DNA from: Leptotrichiaceae bacterium
GTDB lineage: Bacteria; Fusobacteriota; Fusobacteriia; Fusobacteriales; Leptotrichiaceae
Assembly: GCA_018060185.1 (NCBI GenBank)
Contig: JAGOWQ010000004.1
Span: 1 to 64,000 of the forward strand
DNA: 64,000 nucleotides
Direction of reading: 5' to 3'
Positions 22,006-58,052 of this stretch are shown here, one piece after another; within the stretch, counting starts at the first letter, position 1, and every line of letters begins with the position of its first letter. The position numbers and the translations under genes are program-made. Below the pieces are notes generated by a model. It did not search any database. It saw nothing but the letters and a program-made list of their open reading frames with translations, and had not been told where the DNA came from.

Positions 22006-22554
22006 CTATTCAATAAAACCTGAACTAATAATACTTATAGATACTTTTAAAGCATTCATTCTATTAATATCTATTTTTTCTTTAAAATATATTTTTTCTT
22101 TTAGAACTTCTTTCTCATATACTATTTCCAAATTTTTATACACTCTATTTTTCTGTAATGGTATCTTTAGTATATTTCCATTTTCATTTTTTATTTCCTT
22201 TATATGAAAACCTCCTATACTATTTTCATCATTCCGTAAATATAGTAAAGGTGTCAATTCACTATTACCGTTAATATCCCTTGTTATTGAACTATCAAAA
22301 TAATCTTCTTTTTTATTGATTATTATAACGACTCCATTTTTTAAAATCCCTTTTTTAAGAATTCTTTTTCCATTTTTTTCTTCCATTTTTTCTAAATATT
22401 TTTTAGATATTCTACTTTCAATGCTTTTTTTCACAAAAGCTATATTTGACCTTTCTTTCAAAAAATATATAAAATTAACAGTAAATATTGTTATTATTGA
22501 CAATATTATTAGTACATAAATCAAACTTGCACCTTTACTTTTTTTTATATTCAA
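22006..22554 (-). CDS. Minor pilin / pseudopilin-like protein (GspK or PilX position)
   Basis: Protein of 182 residues with a hydrophobic N-terminal helix (KGASLIYVLIILSIITIFTV, residues 6-25) preceded by a basic leader MNIKKSK. The short leader ending in G before ASLIY resembles a prepilin peptidase site, but the usual glutamate at position 5 after cleavage is replaced by tyrosine, as happens in GspK- and PilX-type tip pilins. Position fourth among the pilin genes agrees. Starts with TTG at 22554 after GGGGATAAAG. Function is inferred from the operon. Confidence 0.65.
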   Translation of the reverse strand: MNIKKSKGASLIYVLIILSIITIFTVNFIYFLKERSNIAFVKKSIESRISKKYLEKMEEKNGKRILKKGILKNGVVIIINKKEDYFDSSITRDINGNSELTPLLYLRNDENSIGGFHIKEIKNENGNILKIPLQKNRVYKNLEIVYEKEVLKEKIYFKEKIDINRMNALKVSISIISSGFIE

Positions 22555-22575
22555 CTTTATCCCCTTTTTTATTTT

Positions 22576-23046
22576 TTATCTCAAATTAACTATTTTGACA
22601 TTTTCTACATCATTAAATTTTAGTTTTATTATAAAAACATCGTCTATTTTTTGAAATTTTATATCACTGTATTCACCTATATTTATATTAGCCCCCATTT
22701 TTCCCAATTTTTCTCCATCTGAAATAAAAAGTTTGTTATTTTTTATTTCAAATTTATAAAATAAATTATCCTTTTTAAACACTACTTCGTTTTCTGAAAT
22801 AAATATATCCTTTTGCTCTCCATTATTTAAAAATATATTTCTATCTCTGTTTTTAACATCTTCTATTATTTTATTTAATGAATTAAAAACTCTCTCATCT
22901 TGAAGCTGTGAATTTGCTTTTACTTTTTCTATTATTAACACTCTTTTTAAAAATATTGAAAGAATGAAAATCAAAATAGAAAACATAAATATCGCAATAG
23001 AGACTTCGATGAGTAAATATCCTTTTTGTTTTACTTTTTTTAACAA
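22576..23046 (-). CDS. Minor pseudopilin (GspJ/PilW-like)
   Basis: A 156-residue pilin-like protein. Leader MLKKVKQKG is followed by YLLIEVSIAIFMFSILIFIL: cleavage after glycine 9 would put glutamate at mature position 5, the class III/IV pilin rule. A hydrophobic helix covers residues 10-32, then a mostly beta C-terminal domain. It is probably a low-abundance tip subunit. Starts with TTG at 23046 with AAGGAG about eight bases upstream; no in-frame ATG exists near. Flanked by two other pilin-like genes. Confidence 0.75.
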   Translation of the reverse strand: MLKKVKQKGYLLIEVSIAIFMFSILIFILSIFLKRVLIIEKVKANSQLQDERVFNSLNKIIEDVKNRDRNIFLNNGEQKDIFISENEVVFKKDNLFYKFEIKNNKLFISDGEKLGKMGANINIGEYSDIKFQKIDDVFIIKLKFNDVENVKIVNLR

Positions 23047-23070
23047 TATTGATCTCCTTATATTTTTTAG

Positions 23071-23508
23071 TTATTCTATTTGTGGAAAATAAAAATCTTT
23101 TATACTATCTACATATATTTCAAAAATATACTCTTTTTCTCCGTCATTATTTATATAATAATTTTCACTTTTTTTTATTTCTATTTTTCTTTTTTTATTT
23201 TCTTTAATATTTTTAAAAAGTCGGTATTTTGTATCAATATGAAATTTATGATAAAATTCATTTATATTACTTATCTCATAATCACCTTCTAACATTTCTA
23301 TTTCTTCGTATGTTTTCGTCTTAATAATCTCTATTGTGTTTTTATTTTCACTTATTGTCTCGTTTTCCTTATCAATCTTAGTATTTAAACTATAAGTCTT
23401 CAAAAGAAGATTTGAAACAGGAACTATTACAGTTACTATAAAAAACATTGAAATAATACTTTCAATTAAACTTTCTCCTTTTTTCATAATTTTACTAACT
23501 TTTTTCAT
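23071..23508 (-). CDS. Minor pseudopilin (GspI/PilV-like)
   Basis: A 145-residue pilin-like protein with a basic leader MKKVSKIMKKG and then ESLIESIISMFFIVTVIVPV. Processing after glycine 11 gives glutamates at mature positions 1 and 5; position 5 is the canonical one. A hydrophobic helix is followed by a charged, lysine-rich C-terminal region. Its ATG overlaps the stop of the prepilin peptidase gene (TAATG), so the two are translationally coupled. Family placement (I/V type) rests on gene order. Confidence 0.72.
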   Translation of the reverse strand: MKKVSKIMKKGESLIESIISMFFIVTVIVPVSNLLLKTYSLNTKIDKENETISENKNTIEIIKTKTYEEIEMLEGDYEISNINEFYHKFHIDTKYRLFKNIKENKKRKIEIKKSENYYINNDGEKEYIFEIYVDSIKDFYFPQIE

Positions 23509-24026
23509 TAAATTCCCCTCAACTTGAATTCCATAATTATATATGTTATTACTAAAAATGGAGCAAAAGGTAGATATTTTATATTTTTATTTCTATTTTT
23601 TACTTTATTATAAATTTTTATGAATACTAATAATAAAAATGAAAAAATACCTGAAATAATATACAAATACATATAAAAATCCAATACATTTTGGATATTT
23701 ACTCTGCTTATTACTTCAGGTATCTTTAATTGTAATCCCCCTCCTAAAACTATCATTAACTTTATATCTCCAAATCCTATAAATTCTTTATTAAAATAGT
23801 CTTCCGTTATATACAGGAATAATAGCGGCAAACTAAAAATACACATTCCCAAATAATATTTTTCAAAATCCATCTTAATAAAACTTTCTATTAAATTCAA
23901 AAAAAATAGCATAATGAGATATTTATCAGAAATTATTTTTCTTTTTATATCTATCATGCAAATTCTATATAAAAAAATATATTTTATAATTTCTATAATT
24001 ATTTCCCCTCTTATTATATCCTTCAT
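23508..24026 (-). CDS. Prepilin peptidase, minimal A24 type (no methylase domain)
   Basis: Polytopic membrane aspartyl protease of 172 residues that would cleave the pilin leaders encoded around it. The two catalytic aspartates are visible: the first in MIDIKRKIISDKYL (about residues 25-38) and the second in GFGDIKLM (about 88-95), the GxGD motif. About six membrane spans. Classical PilD enzymes have an extra N-terminal zinc/methyltransferase region of about 100 residues; that is absent here, so mature pilins may not be N-methylated. Located directly after the major pilin gene, two bases apart. Confidence 0.85.
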   Translation of the reverse strand: MKDIIRGEIIIEIIKYIFLYRICMIDIKRKIISDKYLIMLFFLNLIESFIKMDFEKYYLGMCIFSLPLLFLYITEDYFNKEFIGFGDIKLMIVLGGGLQLKIPEVISRVNIQNVLDFYMYLYIISGIFSFLLLVFIKIYNKVKNRNKNIKYLPFAPFLVITYIIMEFKLRGI

Positions 24027-24027
24027 C

Positions 24028-24417
24028 TTATCTTCTTATTTCTTCCCCTGGAAAAGCTCTACTATTCGAATCAATCTTTGCATAAACTTCTCCATTGTCT
24101 ATTTCTAATTTTCCTGTTATATTTCCTATTTTAAAATTCCCACTTGAGTCAATTCCTATACCTAATTTATTTATATTTCCATGTTCTGTGAAAATATCTT
24201 GTATATTAGACGGTACATCTCCACCATTATCTATACTCCATGAAGTAGAAGAATTATTTAGTTCAGCAACAGCACCTATCACTTTACTTCTGTTTGCTTT
24301 ATTAAGATATTTTCCTACTTGTGGTACTGCAATAGCTGATAGTATAGTAATTATTGCTACAACGAGAATGACTTCTATAAGAGTAAATCCATAATTTTTG
24401 TTTTTTCTTTTTCCCAT
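24028..24417 (-). CDS. Major pilin / pseudopilin (PilA/GspG-like)
   Basis: First gene of the operon and the only one with a textbook prepilin site: leader MGKRKNKNYG then FTLIEVILVVAIITILSAIA, with phenylalanine at mature position 1 and glutamate at 5. The protein is 129 residues, giving a mature pilin of about 119. A short globular region follows the helix (AVPQVGKYLNKANRSKV), with no cysteine pair, unlike type IVa pilins with a disulfide-bonded D-region. Strong promoter (24456-24484) and ribosome site AAGGAGG suggest high expression. Could be the filament of a competence pilus, a T4P or a secretion pseudopilus. Confidence 0.88.
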   Translation of the reverse strand: MGKRKNKNYGFTLIEVILVVAIITILSAIAVPQVGKYLNKANRSKVIGAVAELNNSSTSWSIDNGGDVPSNIQDIFTEHGNINKLGIGIDSSGNFKIGNITGKLEIDNGEVYAKIDSNSRAFPGEEIRR

Positions 24418-24637: not shown

Positions 24638-25639
24638 TTATAACGGATATTCTCTATCTCCTAACGTTGCAACCATCACAGCTTTTATTGTATGCATTCT
24701 ATTTTCAGCTTCATCAAATACAACAGAATTTTCACTTCTAAATATTTCATCAGTAACTTCCATTTCTTTAATTCCATACTCTTTTTCAATTTCTTTAGCT
24801 ACTTTTGTATTTAAATCATGAAAAGCAGGTAAGCAATGCATAAATATATAGTCAGATTTAGCATGCTTTACTAATTCTGAATTCACTTGATAGTATGATA
24901 ATCTTTCTATTCTTTCTTTCCAAACTTCTTTAGTTTCGCCCATTGATACCCACACATCTGTATAAATTACATCGGCGTCTTTTACCCCTTCAATTCTATC
25001 ATCAGTAAAGAATATTCTTCCTTTTGTTTTTTCTGCAATTTTAATTGCAGTTTCTGCGAGTTCTTTTCTAGGGAATAACTCTTTTGGTGCTACTATCCTA
25101 AAATCCATTCCAAATTTAGCAGCACCTATCATCAATGAATTTGCCATATTATTTCTTCCATCTCCAACATATGCTAATTTTATCCCCTTTAATTTACCTT
25201 TTTTTTCTAAAATAGTTAAAAAATCTGCTAAAATTTGAGTAGGATGAAATTCTGTAGTAAGTCCATTCCATACAGGAACTCCTGAATGTTCTGATAATAT
25301 TTCAACTACTTCTTGACCATATCCTCTGTACTCTATTCCATCATAAAATCTTCCTAAAACCTTTGCAGTATCTTCCATGGATTCTTTGTCTCCAATTTGA
25401 GAAGATGAAGGTCCTATATAACTCACATTTGCTCCTTGATCAAAAGCTGCCACTTCAAATGCACATCTAGTTCTTGTAGATGTTTTTTCAAATATGAGTG
25501 CAATATTTTTCCCCTCCAATGTCTTTTTTTCAATTCCATTTTTTTTGTCTTTTTTTAATTTTTTGGATAAATCAATAAGATATTGTATCTCATCTTTTGT
25601 AAAATCTAATAATTTCAAAAATGAACGCCCTTTTATCAT
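24638..25639 (-). CDS. argF: Ornithine carbamoyltransferase
   Basis: Makes citrulline from ornithine and carbamoyl phosphate in arginine biosynthesis. The 333-residue length is normal. The carbamoyl-phosphate loop STRTRCAFE (about residues 54-62), the HPTQ motif (about 133-136) and the ornithine-binding HCLPAFHD (about 273-280) are all present. Last gene of argCJBDF, so it responds to the arginine leader upstream of argC. A catabolic role (arginine deiminase pathway) is unlikely because arcA and arcC are not adjacent. ATG at 25639. Confidence 0.95.
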
Positions 25640-25675
25640 GACTTTTCACCTTTTCCTTTCTATTTTTAATTATAT

Positions 25676-26839
25676 TTAAAATTTTCCAACTACTTCTTCT
25701 AATATTTTTATAGATTTATCTATCTCGGCTTTACAAACATTAAATGGTGGAAAATATCTAACTACATTATTTCCTGCTCCAACTAATAATAATCCTTTTT
25801 CAAGTGCAAATGCAACAAAATCTTTAGACAATACTTTTGAACTATCCAATTTTATTCCTAATAATAATCCTTTTCCTCTAATTTCGACTATAAAATCTAT
25901 TTTACTTCTTAGATTTTCTAATTTTTCTTTGGCATATTTTCCCATTTCAATAACATTATTTTTTATTAAATTATTATCAATCAATTCTTTTAAAACAGCA
26001 TTTCCTACCGCACAAACTAATGGATTACCCCCATATGTAGAACCATGATCTCCAGGGGTAAGCACTTCATTAGCTATTCCTTTTGTTAAACATGCTCCTA
26101 TAGGTACGCCTCCACCAAGTGATTTTGCTATTGTTATAACGTCAGGAATCAAATTAAACTGCTCATAAGCAAATAATGTCCCCATTCTTCCCATTCCACA
26201 TTGTATTTCATCAAAAATTACTAGTATATTGTATTTTTCCTTTAATTCTTTTATTTTTTCTATAAATTCAGATGTAACTTCTTCTAAACCACTTTCACCT
26301 TGTACTGGCTCTAATATTATTGCTGCTGTGTTATCGCTTACTTTTCTTATTAAATCTTCAGAATCATTAAATTTACACTCTGTAATATTTGAAATTAAAG
26401 GTTCAAAAGGTTCTTTATACTTATTTTGCCCTGTAATTGCAAGTGAACCTGTGCTTCTTCCATGAAAAGAATCAGTCATGTAAATAATCTCAGTTTTATT
26501 TTCTGATATGTTTCTACCAAACTTTCTTGCAATTTTTATGGCGAGTTCAACGGCTTCTGTTCCACTATTTGTGAAAAATACTTTTTCCATTTCACTATTT
26601 TCAGTTAATTTTTTTGCAAGATTTAATTGAGGCTCACTATAATATAAATTTGATATGTGTATAAGTTTTTTACTTTGTTCAGTTAATGCTTCTACTATAA
26701 TAGGACTTGAATGACCGAGGCAATTTACAGATATCCCAGAAACAAAATCTAAATATTTGTTTCCTTTATTATCGTATATATATGTCCCTTCCCCTTTTTC
26801 AAAAGTTACATCGTATCGATTATATACATTTAACAACAT
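25676..26839 (-). CDS. argD: Acetylornithine aminotransferase
   Basis: PLP-dependent class III aminotransferase, 387 residues, converting N-acetylglutamate semialdehyde to N-acetylornithine. Landmarks are TNSGTEAVELAIK (about residues 91-103), the SFHGRSTGSLAITG segment, FDEIQCGMGRMG with the PLP-contacting aspartate, and the PLP lysine in ITIAKSLGGGVPIGA. Ornithine or succinylornithine aminotransferases look alike, but the arg operon settles the call. It starts one base before argB ends. Confidence 0.94.
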   Translation of the reverse strand: MLLNVYNRYDVTFEKGEGTYIYDNKGNKYLDFVSGISVNCLGHSSPIIVEALTEQSKKLIHISNLYYSEPQLNLAKKLTENSEMEKVFFTNSGTEAVELAIKIARKFGRNISENKTEIIYMTDSFHGRSTGSLAITGQNKYKEPFEPLISNITECKFNDSEDLIRKVSDNTAAIILEPVQGESGLEEVTSEFIEKIKELKEKYNILVIFDEIQCGMGRMGTLFAYEQFNLIPDVITIAKSLGGGVPIGACLTKGIANEVLTPGDHGSTYGGNPLVCAVGNAVLKELIDNNLIKNNVIEMGKYAKEKLENLRSKIDFIVEIRGKGLLLGIKLDSSKVLSKDFVAFALEKGLLLVGAGNNVVRYFPPFNVCKAEIDKSIKILEEVVGKF

Positions 26840-27721
26840 TTAATCATCTCCTTTTTTTATTAATGTTCCTGCTCCTTCGACAGTAAACAATTCTAATAAT
26901 AATGAATGTTCTAATTTACCATTTAATATAATTACATTATCAACACCATTTTTTATAGCATCAAGGCAAGTATTTACTTTAGGAAGCATGCCACCACTTA
27001 TTATATTTTTTCTAATTAAACTTTCTACTTCTTCTTTTGTTGCTTCATCAATTAAAGTTTCTTTATTAAATGGATCTAGCATTATACCATCAACATCAGT
27101 TAAAAATATAAGTCTGTCTGCTTTAAGTTTTCCTGCTATAGCTCCTGCCACATAATCTGCATTAATATTGTATGTATTCCCTGATTTATCAACCCCTATG
27201 GACGATATTACAGGTATAACATCATTAGATTCTAGAAGTCTTATTACACTATCATTTACCTTTTTTATTTCCCCTACAAATCCTATATCTACTTTTTTTC
27301 CTTCTATTTCAATATATTTTTTTTCAACAAGTATCATGTTATCATCTTTACCACTAAGTCCTACTGCTTTACCACCATATTTATTAATATCTGAGACTAT
27401 CCCTTTATTTACCTTTCCAGATAGAACCATTTCAACTATTTCCATAGTTTCTTCATCTGTAACTCTATTTCCCCCTACAAATTTACTTTCCTTACCTACT
27501 CTATTTAACATATCATTTATTTCAGGTCCTCCTCCATGTATAATTACTGGATTTATACCTACATATTTCATAAGTACCACATCTTGAATAAACTGGTCTC
27601 TTGCTATTTCATTTACCATGGCACTTCCTCCATACTTTATAACTATAGTTTTACCATGATATTTTTTTATAAAAGGTAGTGCTTTTACTAATATTTTTGC
27701 CTTATCCAAATTTGAAATCAT
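26840..27721 (-). CDS. argB: Acetylglutamate kinase
   Basis: Phosphorylates N-acetylglutamate, usually the feedback-regulated step. The 293-residue protein has the amino acid kinase fold: KYGGSAMVNE (about residues 24-33), VIIHGGGPEIN (about 59-69), GLSGKDDN, and FLTDVDGIM. The N-terminal extension before the first motif (LDKAKILVKALPFIKKY) resembles the arginine-sensitive hexameric form, so feedback inhibition by arginine is plausible. Directly abuts argD. Confidence 0.94.
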   Translation of the reverse strand: MISNLDKAKILVKALPFIKKYHGKTIVIKYGGSAMVNEIARDQFIQDVVLMKYVGINPVIIHGGGPEINDMLNRVGKESKFVGGNRVTDEETMEIVEMVLSGKVNKGIVSDINKYGGKAVGLSGKDDNMILVEKKYIEIEGKKVDIGFVGEIKKVNDSVIRLLESNDVIPVISSIGVDKSGNTYNINADYVAGAIAGKLKADRLIFLTDVDGIMLDPFNKETLIDEATKEEVESLIRKNIISGGMLPKVNTCLDAIKNGVDNVIILNGKLEHSLLLELFTVEGAGTLIKKGDD

Positions 27722-27754
27722 ATTTATCCTTTCTATTTAGTTTAATAAAAAATT

Positions 27755-28975
27755 TTATGTATGATACTCTGCATTAATTCTAACGTAGTCGTAACTAAGA
27801 TCACAGCCCCAAGCAGTTGCATTAAATTCTCCATCATTTAATTCTATTATTATTTCTACTTTCTCATTTTTCAACGTATTTGCTGCTTTTATTTCATCAA
27901 ACTCTATTGCCATCCCATTTTTTGCTACTTGAACTTTTATATCTCCTCCTTTTAAATAAATCGAAACTTTATCTATCATAATCTCAGCTTCTGAATAACC
28001 AACGGCACATAATATTCTTCCCCAGTTAGGATCCCCTCCAAATACAGCCGCTTTGAATAAACTTGAAGTAACAACTGATTTAGATACTTTTTTTGCATCT
28101 TTCAGAGTTTTAGCCCCTATGACTGACACTTCTATAAGTTTTGTAGCTCCTTCACCATCTTTTGCTATTAACTTTGCTAACTCTTCATTTACTTTATACA
28201 AAGCTTTCCTAAATTCATTATATCCTTTAGAATTTTCATTTACTATTTTTTCATTTTCTGAAAGACCATTTGCCAACACACAAGCCATATCATTTGTACT
28301 TGTATCTCCATCAACAGAAATCATATTAAATGTATTATCTGCCACCTCTAAAAACATTTTCTGTAGCAGTGATTTTTCAATATTAACATCTGTAATTGTA
28401 AAAGAAAGCATTGTTGCCATATTCGGATGTATCATTCCTGATCCTTTTGCCATTCCTGCTATTGTTACTTTTCTACCATCTATTTCAAATTCATAGCAAA
28501 TCTGTTTTACGAAAGTATCTGTTGTCATAATTGCAGTGGCTGCATCTAGTCCTCCAGTTTCATCTAAGGATTGCATTGCTTTATCTATTCCATTTTCAAT
28601 TTTATCCATGTTTAATTGAACTCCTATTATACCAGTTGATTGTACTAATACTTCTTCGGTTTTTAATTCAAATTTTTTCGCTACTATTTCTGCCATCTTT
28701 TTTGCATTTATAAGTCCCTTTTCACCAGTACACGAGTTAGCATTCCCACTATTTACAACTATTGCTTGGGTATTTTCATTTTTTATATGCTCCATATCTA
28801 TTAATATAGGTGCAGCCTTTGCTAAATTTTTAGTAAAAACTCCTGCACAAACTGCTTTTCCTTCACTATATATTAAAGCTAAATCTTTTTTCCCACTATT
28901 TTTAAGTCCTGCTGATATCCCTGTTGCTTTTATTCCTTTTACATTTGTTATAGTACCATTTTCTATCTTTTTCAT
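27755..28975 (-). CDS. argJ: Glutamate N-acetyltransferase (ArgJ)
   Basis: Moves the acetyl group from acetylornithine to glutamate, making the pathway cyclic. The 406-residue precursor contains the self-cleavage site in GSGMIHPNMATMLSFTIT: the threonine of ATM becomes the N-terminal nucleophile of the beta chain. Other signatures are GNANSCTGE near residue 80 and FGGDPNWGRI near 313. Whether it also uses acetyl-CoA (bifunctional) cannot be read here; no argA or argE gene is in the window. Second gene of the operon, 70 bp from argC. Confidence 0.95.
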   Translation of the reverse strand: MKKIENGTITNVKGIKATGISAGLKNSGKKDLALIYSEGKAVCAGVFTKNLAKAAPILIDMEHIKNENTQAIVVNSGNANSCTGEKGLINAKKMAEIVAKKFELKTEEVLVQSTGIIGVQLNMDKIENGIDKAMQSLDETGGLDAATAIMTTDTFVKQICYEFEIDGRKVTIAGMAKGSGMIHPNMATMLSFTITDVNIEKSLLQKMFLEVADNTFNMISVDGDTSTNDMACVLANGLSENEKIVNENSKGYNEFRKALYKVNEELAKLIAKDGEGATKLIEVSVIGAKTLKDAKKVSKSVVTSSLFKAAVFGGDPNWGRILCAVGYSEAEIMIDKVSIYLKGGDIKVQVAKNGMAIEFDEIKAANTLKNEKVEIIIELNDGEFNATAWGCDLSYDYVRINAEYHT

Positions 28976-29045: not shown

Positions 29046-30095
29046 CTATAAATACATTGATAAAAATTCTAATCCTTCAAATTCATCTAACCCAAACATA
29101 ATATTCATGCTTTGAACAGCCTGACCTCCTGCTCCTTTTATTAAATTATCTATTGCTGATACTACCACTATATTTCCATATTCTCTATCATATCTTATTC
29201 CTATCTCACAAATATTACTATTTTTTATATTTTTTATTTCTGGTAAATCTTCAGTTATTCTAACGAAATGTTCATTTTTATAAAATTCTTTATACAATTT
29301 ATAAATCTTTTCTTCACTAATTTCCTCTTTTAACTCTTCTTTTACATCTAAATAAATTGTGGATAATATCCCTCTATTTATTGGAAGTAAATGTGGGGTA
29401 AACACTAAATTTATATTACTATTACATAGTTTATCCATTTCTTGTTTAATTTCTGGGGTATGTCTATGTTGCAAAACATTGTATGCCTTAAAATTTTCAT
29501 TTACCTCAGTAAAAATCAAATCAACTTTGGCATTTCTTCCAGCACCTGATACACCTGACTTAGAATCCACAACTATTTTTTTTGTATTAACAAGATTATG
29601 TTTTAAAAGAGGAGCAACTCCTAAAATTGCTGAAGTAGGATAACAACCTGGAGATGAAATAATTTTAGATTTTCTTATTTCTTCTTTATAAATTTCAGGT
29701 AATCCATAAATAGCAGATTTATTTATATTAGGGAATTCATGCTTAACTTTATACCATTTTTCATATATTGTTGAATCATCCAGTCTAAAATCTGCTCCTA
29801 AATCAATTACTTTTACATTATTTTCAACAGCTTCTTTAGTCAGTTTCTCAGACATTCCATGAGGTAACGCCAAAAACAAAACATCAATTTCAGACAATTT
29901 TTCTTTAACTTCATCTATTGAAATTAACTTTTTTTCAAAATATTTTTTATAGTTTTTATATATATCTCCTATATCATTTCCTGAAAACGAATGAGATGAA
30001 ATAAATTCTACTTTTACCTTTTTATGATTTTTTAAAATCCATAATAACTGTTGACCAGCATATCCTGTGGCTCCTATAATTCCTACTTTTATCAT
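29046..30095 (-). CDS. argC: N-acetyl-gamma-glutamyl-phosphate reductase
   Basis: NADPH-dependent reductase, 349 residues. The N-terminal Rossmann motif IGATGYAGQQLL (about residues 6-17) and the catalytic cysteine in SSPGCYPTSAILG (about 147-159) are clear, followed by DSKSGVSGAGR. The dehydrogenase histidine region is HRHTPEI. First structural gene of the arginine operon. Its ATG at 30095 follows AGGAGG four bases away and lies 25 bases after the attenuator terminator. Confidence 0.96.
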   Translation of the reverse strand: MIKVGIIGATGYAGQQLLWILKNHKKVKVEFISSHSFSGNDIGDIYKNYKKYFEKKLISIDEVKEKLSEIDVLFLALPHGMSEKLTKEAVENNVKVIDLGADFRLDDSTIYEKWYKVKHEFPNINKSAIYGLPEIYKEEIRKSKIISSPGCYPTSAILGVAPLLKHNLVNTKKIVVDSKSGVSGAGRNAKVDLIFTEVNENFKAYNVLQHRHTPEIKQEMDKLCNSNINLVFTPHLLPINRGILSTIYLDVKEELKEEISEEKIYKLYKEFYKNEHFVRITEDLPEIKNIKNSNICEIGIRYDREYGNIVVVSAIDNLIKGAGGQAVQSMNIMFGLDEFEGLEFLSMYL

Positions 30096-30119: not shown

Positions 30120-30258
30120 AAAAAAACCTATGTATTTCATAGGCTCTTTCTTGATTTTTATTTCTATATTTAAAGAAAAGAGCCAACAACCCTTTAAGGT
30201 CATTGACTCTATTTTTAATATATATGTTGAAATATTATAAAAACGACAATGATAAAGG
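30120..30258 (-). promoter_or_regulatory. Transcription attenuator of the arg operon
   Basis: Five RNA segments with exclusive pairings can be read. A = CCUUUAUCAUUG (30258-30247, inside the leader ORF). B = 30205-30191, CAAUGA-CCU-UAAAGG, with GAGU just before. C = UUGGCUCUUUUCUU (30186-30173). D = AAGAAAGAGCC (30152-30142). E = CAUAGG (30132-30127), then seven U. A pairs with B (12 bp, 3-base bulge). GAGUCAA (30209-30203) pairs with UUGGCUC of C. C pairs with D (11 bp, one bulge). D's CCUAUG pairs with E as an intrinsic terminator. Ribosome position on the leader would choose between the C:D antiterminator and the D:E terminator. Pairings are seen; the mechanism is inferred. Confidence 0.85.
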
Positions 30259-30312
30259 ATCATTAATAATAATGTTTATTATTCTTTCCCTTATCCTTCT
30301 GTTCATTTTCAT
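30235..30312 (-). CDS. Arginine leader peptide (25 aa)
   Basis: Short ORF just after the promoter with a strong ribosome site, GGAGG seven bases before ATG at 30312. The peptide starts MKMNRRIRER and ends DPLSLSFL before TAA at 30237-30235. Arginine codons are at positions 5, 6, 8 and 10 (AGA, AGG, AGG, AGA): four Arg in six codons, far above chance. It precedes the arg operon and an attenuator. A ribosome held at these codons leaves RNA segment A exposed, while one at the stop codon covers it, as required for starvation sensing. Too short for similarity evidence; codon content, ribosome site and RNA folds support it. Confidence 0.85.
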   Translation of the reverse strand: MKMNRRIRERIINIIINDPLSLSFL

Positions 30313-30345
30313 AATATTTCCTCCTTCTTTTATTTGATATATATT

Positions 30346-30374
30346 ATTTTACCAAATTTTTTATATAATTTCAA
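30346..30374 (-). promoter_or_regulatory. Promoter of the arg operon
   Basis: TTGAAA at 30374-30369, 17-base spacer, TAAAAT at 30351-30346. Start near 30339 leaves only about 27 bases before the leader-peptide ATG. No obvious ARG box overlaps it, though AT richness makes such boxes hard to judge. Confidence 0.78.
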
Positions 30375-41347: not shown

Positions 41348-41485
41348 ATATTCTACTTCTTTCATCTAGACTATACACTATCGGTACTGGAATCTAACCA
41401 GTTCATACTACTCAAATAAATTAATTATTCTTTTGTTCGTGGACTTTACCACCGGTCGGGAATTTCACCCTGCCCTGAAGTTTAT
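41348..41485 (-). promoter_or_regulatory. FMN riboswitch (RFN element)
   Basis: All conserved RFN blocks are readable on the minus strand: CUUCAGGGCAGGGUGAAAUU, CCCGACCGGUGGUAAAGUCC, the AACUGGU...AUUCCAGUACCGA arm, and GUCUAGAUGAAAGAAG at the 3' end. It senses FMN and regulates ribHDE-ribBA through the terminator that follows. Confidence 0.97.
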
Positions 41486-41500
41486 TTTTTATCTGATTAT

Positions 41501-57859: not shown

Positions 57860-58052
57860 ATCTTTTCCTCCTCTGTTTTTGATATTTTTAATCTTCTTCA
57901 ATATGCCCTCACATAAGTAAACAAGGATAAGCTCTACAGCCAAACATATCTTTACAATTTCTATAACATATCATATTTCCTATTATTATATAATATAATT
58001 AATATAATATAATTAAATAAAAATTTTTCAGATTGCTCTTTTGTTTTGATTA
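57860..58052 (-). promoter_or_regulatory. Leader region between rpmJ and rpsM, possible internal promoter or r-protein leader
   Basis: A 193-bp gap in an otherwise tightly packed ribosomal operon. The distal half is a run of TATAAT-like repeats; the half nearer rpsM is less AT-rich (around 57900-57955, with segments GUUUGGCUGUAGAGC and CUUAUGUGAGGGCAUAU), suggesting a structured RNA. In other bacteria S4 binds an RNA here (alpha operon leader). I cannot fold it convincingly by eye, so this is only a candidate. Confidence 0.35.

Follow-up and report, generated by a model that had tools for sequence, protein, structure and literature searches.

An arginine-codon leader as a candidate transcription attenuator of argCJBDF in Fusobacteriales

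How is arginine biosynthesis controlled in a bacterium in whose genome no ArgR was found? The usual example of control by ArgR is arginine biosynthesis, and leader-peptide attenuation is textbook knowledge for the trp, his, leu, ilv, thr and phe operons. The window (the whole stretch of 64 kb of DNA that was analysed) contains an argCJBDF operon preceded by a short ORF with four arginine codons. ArgR (PF01316) was absent from the genome of the window (G000, 87% complete), and in a search covering 100 relatives no protein above the cut-off was encoded in about 95 Fusobacteriales genomes; the same profile did match 9 of the 14 control genomes and one class-level relative. The arg operon of this genome does not qualify as a member of an ArgR regulon. 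Judged from its sequence, the leader is very probably a trp/his-type, ribosome-mediated transcription attenuator with arginine control codons, controlling argCJBDF.

The argC leader and its operon

All leader and operon coordinates lie on the minus strand, and base n of the leader ORF corresponds to window position 30313-n. The following features were recognized.

30346..30374, minus strand: sigma-70-type promoter, 10/12 consensus match
30374-30369, minus strand: -35 box TTGAAA, 17-nt spacer to the -10 box
30351-30346, minus strand: TAAAAT of the extended -10 box TG.TAAAAT, in which TG precedes the -10
30313..30326, minus strand: leader Shine-Dalgarno sequence (SD) AAGGAGG at 30326-30320 with a 7-nt spacer, from the sequence
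30235..30312, minus strand: leader ORF of 25 codons, MKMNRRIRERIINIIINDPLSLSFL, ATG at 30312-30310, stop codon at 30237-30235
29046..30095, minus strand: argC, the first structural gene (TIGR01850, 431 bits)
24638..28975, minus strand: rest of the putatively controlled operon, argJ-argB-argD-argF (NCBIfam above cut-off)
27755-28975, minus strand: argJ (NCBIfam above cut-off)
26840-27721, minus strand: argB (NCBIfam above cut-off)
25676-26839, minus strand: argD (NCBIfam above cut-off)
24638-25639, minus strand: argF (NCBIfam above cut-off)

The promoter, the strong SD and the 25-codon ORF with Arg at positions 5, 6, 8 and 10, described in an earlier note on this DNA, were all confirmed in the sequence; the Arg codons are AGA, AGG, AGG and AGA. 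Among the 14 small ORFs (12–49 aa) of the 64-kb window that start with ATG and are preceded by an SD, the leader ORF was the only one with at least three Arg in the first 12 codons (it has four). TTGAAA/TTGATT-17-TATA-like boxes were seen by eye at the equivalent place in relatives, where a strong SD also precedes the leader ORF. The NCBIfam assignments gave the gene order argC-argJ-argB-argD-argF, and the SD of argC (AGGAGG) is located just 5' of the gene. The genome groups with Leptotrichia-type bacteria, its ArgC being 82% identical to those of the nearest relatives; Leptotrichia sp. oral taxon 879 (locus L001) was among the ArgC matches. On the 3' side of argF, a run of small genes resembling those of prepilin-type proteins, with the N-terminal sequence GFTLIEVILVVAIITIL, occupies positions 22006-24417 of the minus strand.

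A search of Rfam at the leader returned no family at the gathering threshold, and the sub-threshold matches were weak and unrelated. No T-box was matched at either level, and the leader does not belong to the T-boxes by this measure. Elsewhere on the minus strand of the window, Rfam identified three ordinary elements: an FMN riboswitch (41350-41486), a TPP riboswitch (2508-2615) and an S4-Fusobacteriales ribosomal protein leader (57894-57957).

Six RNA segments and their alternative pairings

The leader transcript was divided into six segments with two terminators, T1 and T2.

30287..30312, minus strand: segment 1, the AUG region and the Arg-codon stretch, pairs with segment 2
30295-30287, minus strand: inner arm of segment 1, GAUAAGGGA (Arg codons), pairs with UCCUUUAUC at 30259-30251
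30312-30303, minus strand: outer arm of segment 1, with the AUG within the outer 1:2 stem
30237..30259, minus strand: segment 2, UCCUUUAUCAUUG...UUUUUAU, the end of the ORF, pairs with segment 1 or 3
30198..30210, minus strand: segment 3, 5' arm of T1, from folding and terminator search
30172..30191, minus strand: segment 4, 3' arm and U-rich tail of T1, in a helix that covaries
30138..30152, minus strand: segment 5, AAGAAAGAGCCUAUG, partner of segment 4 or else 5' arm of T2
30120..30132, minus strand: segment 6, 3' arm and U7 tail of T2, from the 5:6 cognate test

T1, the 3:4 hairpin at 30210-30179, has 14 pairs, 5 of them G-C, and the tail UUUCUUU; shuffling of the region gave 0.0 +/- 0.1 T1-like terminator sites. 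T2 is the 5:6 pairing CCUAUG..CAUAGG-U7, ending at 30120. In folding, the 2:3 pairing joins UCAUUG at 30252-30247 with CAAUGA, and the 4:5 pairing joins GGCUCUUUUCUU with AAGAAAGAGCC.

The earlier note had distinguished five segments, A–E, which correspond to segments 2–6, and all of its pairings, A:B, B:C, C:D and D:E, were recovered as 2:3, 3:4, 4:5 and 5:6. The count is raised to six by the Arg-codon stretch, and D:E, although a U-tailed terminator as proposed, is not the only one, since B:C is also an intrinsic terminator with a U-rich tail of its own. Given this B:C terminator and a sixth segment, in which the Arg codons pair with A, the earlier interpretation was mostly right but incomplete. 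It is through segment 1 that the Arg codons are connected to the switch.

The 1:2 and 3:4 stems were scored in an alignment of 18 leaders. Paired bases were found in 96.4% of cells, and compensatory double changes, which the earlier note had suggested looking for, in 10 of 30 pairs; 42 cells carried double changes vs 14.9 after shuffling. The covariation score was 0.329, compared with 0.208 for shuffled alignments (0/500), a control inflatable by sequence relatedness, and 0.03–0.10 for slid alignments, a control free of this flaw but favouring the alignment-derived structure. The 1:2 stem was among the best conserved.

To analyse the specificity of pairing in eight clades, duplex energies were compared between segments from one and the same leader and segments exchanged between clades. 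Cognate 1:2, 3:4 and 5:6 pairings were stronger in 8/8 clades, as was 2:3 (A:B) if the T1 loop bases were included. Without the loop, 2:3 was stronger in 7/8; the failing clade was L053, and the value for L064/L066 lay close to chance; pairing in these clades uses T1 loop bases. In the window alone, 2:3 was no stronger than in shuffled sequences (p about 0.15), and its support is comparative. The 4:5 relay (C:D) was clearly beyond chance in the window and in Leptotrichia-type clades A and B, and only there; elsewhere it was at chance. For the non-adjacent combinations 1:3, 2:4, 2:5 and 3:5, the swap test gave a cognate advantage at chance level.

The effect of ribosome position, as predicted by folding, was studied in 21 leaders, with a stalled ribosome modelled by masking leader bases 1–41. 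When the transcript extended to segment 3, the stalled state had 8–17 expected 2:3 pairs in 21/21 leaders, while a ribosome at the stop codon left at most one in 19/21; the values with no ribosome were low to intermediate. These folds agree with the geometry proposed earlier, a stall freeing A and the stop codon position masking it; the exceptions are L049 and L062, the latter with a long leader ORF at odds with this arrangement. In the L049 leader, a natural variant, codon 14 is a nonsense codon, which conflicts with the stop-codon geometry. For the window, with the transcript extended to segment 5, the minimum of the stalled state combined 2:3 with 4:5, and T1 formed in the free and stop-codon states. 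Once segment 4 was complete, T1 was favoured over 2:3 at equilibrium in most leaders, even stalled ones, and the terminators were also favoured once segment 6 was complete. Therefore, antitermination would have to be kinetic, set by the order of synthesis, and we infer that 2:3 would win in this way. Reliance on the order of RNA synthesis is usual for this class of attenuators.

Leaders across Fusobacteriales

ArgC searches of 149 genomes yielded about 33 argC genomes in Fusobacteriales. An SD-preceded Arg-rich leader ORF was located directly before argC in 27 of them, representing two families: every one of the 17 Leptotrichiaceae, and 10 genomes from another family. Arg codons were retained in 27/27 of these leaders, a conservation that the earlier note had named as a check. 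In G033, G034, G084 and G087, argC was present and no leader was recognized, and in G063 and G069 an SD-preceded Arg-rich leader ORF lay before an argHGC operon. The argC loci of other phyla (L003–L040) had no comparable Arg leader, with one weak candidate, L004. In a 40-genome sample, a covariance model of the leader gave one match per genome and matched argC genomes only, with one marginal exception, an extra match in G039 (E 0.0085) that was taken as chance.

The leader peptides are unrelated between genera (MMFRISRTRRQIKNQYKSF, MMLLRNFRIMTKHNKTIILNVRLTS, MLRRNYRQKINKI and MRRYRRIRSKYNIQY), with starts as divergent as MKMNRRIRERI.., MMFRISRTRRQ.., MLRRNYRQK.. and MRRYRRIRS... Despite this, the order of hairpins and the placement of the stop codon were largely kept. 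In every genus the leaders had Arg codons as well as a T1-type terminator with a U-tract; T2 and a 1:2 hairpin, whose outer stem often included the AUG, were present in most. Arg occurred in 37/37 leaders examined and accounted for 25% of the 14 residues that follow Met vs 2.6% in ArgC. No residue motif common to the clades was found among the leader peptides beyond Arg.

The choice of codons was also biased. AGG accounted for 80 of 126 leader Arg codons (63%) vs 56 of 229 in argC ORFs (24%; Fisher 6e-13), and for 27/40 when one leader per clade was taken (3e-7); CGN codons were absent from the leader Arg codons. Since the preference for AGG is retained in leaders with a different pairing partner, these sequences suggest that codon choice itself may be selected.

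Genera g23 and g27 include four genomes with two full Arg leaders arranged in series ahead of argC (G061, G075, G083 and G090; loci L106, L107, L108 and L137); in one example, MLIRKSRMGRIKLINTIILKWLD with T1 and T2 is followed by MLRRNYRQKINKI and a third terminator. A separate leader ORF, MRNNFRIMFLHNFIQ, of the MRNNFRIM.. type precedes argG in genus g10 (L081, L084, L087 and L094); its hairpin and terminator follow the argC-leader layout, with only one or two Arg codons. The argG upstream regions of the genome of the window and of most Leptotrichia-type genomes had no leader. In L110 and L111, a short ORF (MRSRYN..) with a terminator precedes the argHGC operon, and a transporter-binding-protein-like gene lies 5' of this ORF.

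Proposed mechanism and alternative explanations

The leader has the properties of a trp/his-type attenuator. A translatable short ORF lies between promoter and operon and recurs in relatives, and it carries control codons for the operon's own product, Arg before argCJBDF. The 1:2, 2:3 and 3:4 pairings are mutually exclusive and accompanied by an intrinsic terminator, 2:3 being weak in the window, and in predicted folds a stall frees segment 2 and a ribosome at the stop masks it. Conservation of Arg, compensatory changes and cognate-specific pairing support the reading of the locus as an Arg-codon leader attenuator, already put forward in the earlier note; from these sequence features we infer that ribosome stalling, termination and a response to arginine would take place at the leader.

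When charged Arg-tRNA is scarce, the ribosome would stall at Arg codons 5–10 and cover segment 1. Segment 2, now free, could pair with segment 3 while segment 4 has yet to be synthesized, preventing T1, and in the lineage of the window the released segment 4 would pair with segment 5, preventing T2. With both terminators averted, RNA polymerase could continue into argC. When arginine is sufficient, the ribosome would reach the stop codon in or next to segment 2 and mask this segment, so that T1 and then T2 could form. If the leader is not translated, 1:2 would form, likewise permitting T1.

A different sensor would be the nascent peptide, as in SpeFL: an Arg-rich peptide would bind arginine or ornithine in the ribosomal tunnel and arrest translation, rather than the codons reporting tRNA charging. 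Such a role would fit the good conservation of the RRIR[DE] motif within Leptotrichiaceae, and consecutive Arg codons matter for control in the Salmonella orf34/speF leader (PMC6386406). We consider it improbable: the clades share no residue motif beyond Arg, the RRIR stretch is accounted for at the RNA level by the pairing of GAUAAGGG with segment 2, and the logic of a biosynthetic operon, induction at low arginine, is directly given by codon stalling. The leader might instead act mainly on translation or mRNA stability, with a stalled ribosome altering structure near argC or decay, and Arg-codon uORFs of S. aureus rbfL (PMC13009471) and Salmonella speF (PMC6386406) provide precedents. This explanation appears slightly less probable still, as the SD of argC is located 3' of T2 and is unpaired in the predicted fold of the window, two U-tailed terminators intervene, and the pairing changes converge on both. 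Control by Rho or by translation only was considered as well and ranked low. The least probable explanation is that a structured 5' UTR carries constitutive tandem terminators, or contains a metabolite riboswitch or T-box, and that the ORF is incidental. T1 and T2 already form strong hairpins on their own, and arginine T-boxes are known elsewhere (a statement in PMC1262725), but Rfam, with T-boxes included, gave no match at the gathering threshold, no aptamer-like core was conserved between clades, and 27 argC leaders that are unrelated in sequence share the Arg-rich ORF, its SD and the position of the stop codon.

The proposed attenuator resembles the enterobacterial trp, his, leu, ilv, thr and phe attenuators in its short translated ORF, whose control codons specify the product, and in its exclusive 1:2/2:3/3:4 hairpins, intrinsic terminator and stop codon beside segment 2. 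It differs in the arginine signal, the phylum, the absence of ArgR from the genome, the two serial terminators joined by 4:5 in the lineage of the window, the AUG inside the outer 1:2 stem, and the AGG-biased control codons.

Other known systems share parts of this arrangement. Salmonella orf34 is likewise an upstream ORF in which Arg codons directly follow one another, and its RNA folds differently when ribosomes pause at low arginine (PMC6386406); this leader controls ornithine decarboxylase via Rho, RNase G and translation, unlike the intrinsic terminators and arginine biosynthesis genes of Fusobacteriales. S. aureus rbfL is also an arginine-sensing leader with AGA/AGG codons (PMC13009471), but it blocks the rbf ribosome site at low arginine and is neither terminator-based nor biosynthetic. 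Among the uORF attenuator candidates reported for other genes in PMC8632094, the uORFC-8-2 cysS motif was likewise discovered comparatively outside the classical operons, but concerns cysteine in Rhodobacterales. ArgR/AhrC repression and arginine T-boxes, the latter used for arginine genes by some species (PMC1262725), exert end-product control on the same pathway through a protein repressor and a tRNA-binding RNA, respectively, whereas no ArgR was found above the cut-off in the Fusobacteriales searched and the leader has no T-box match. In line with the earlier supposition that such a leader is little described, we found no Rfam family and no paper on a leader-peptide attenuator for arginine biosynthesis in the literature searched, mostly without subscription journals; in the attenuator survey PMC2965389, as far as its text was covered by a search, neither Fusobacteria nor arg appeared.

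As a whole order, Fusobacteriales probably lack ArgR and control arginine biosynthesis by AGG-biased Arg-codon attenuators, with relayed tandem terminators in one lineage and two serial attenuators in another. Attenuators connected in series are an unusual circuit, and their transfer function is directly measurable. The choice between AGG and AGA offers a natural test of whether the way in which tRNA isoacceptors lose their charge determines the choice of control codons. If the proposed control is true, a missing case would be filled, that of an order without ArgR using Arg-codon attenuators, and leader ORF and hairpins could be rebuilt from unrelated sequences with the logic unchanged.
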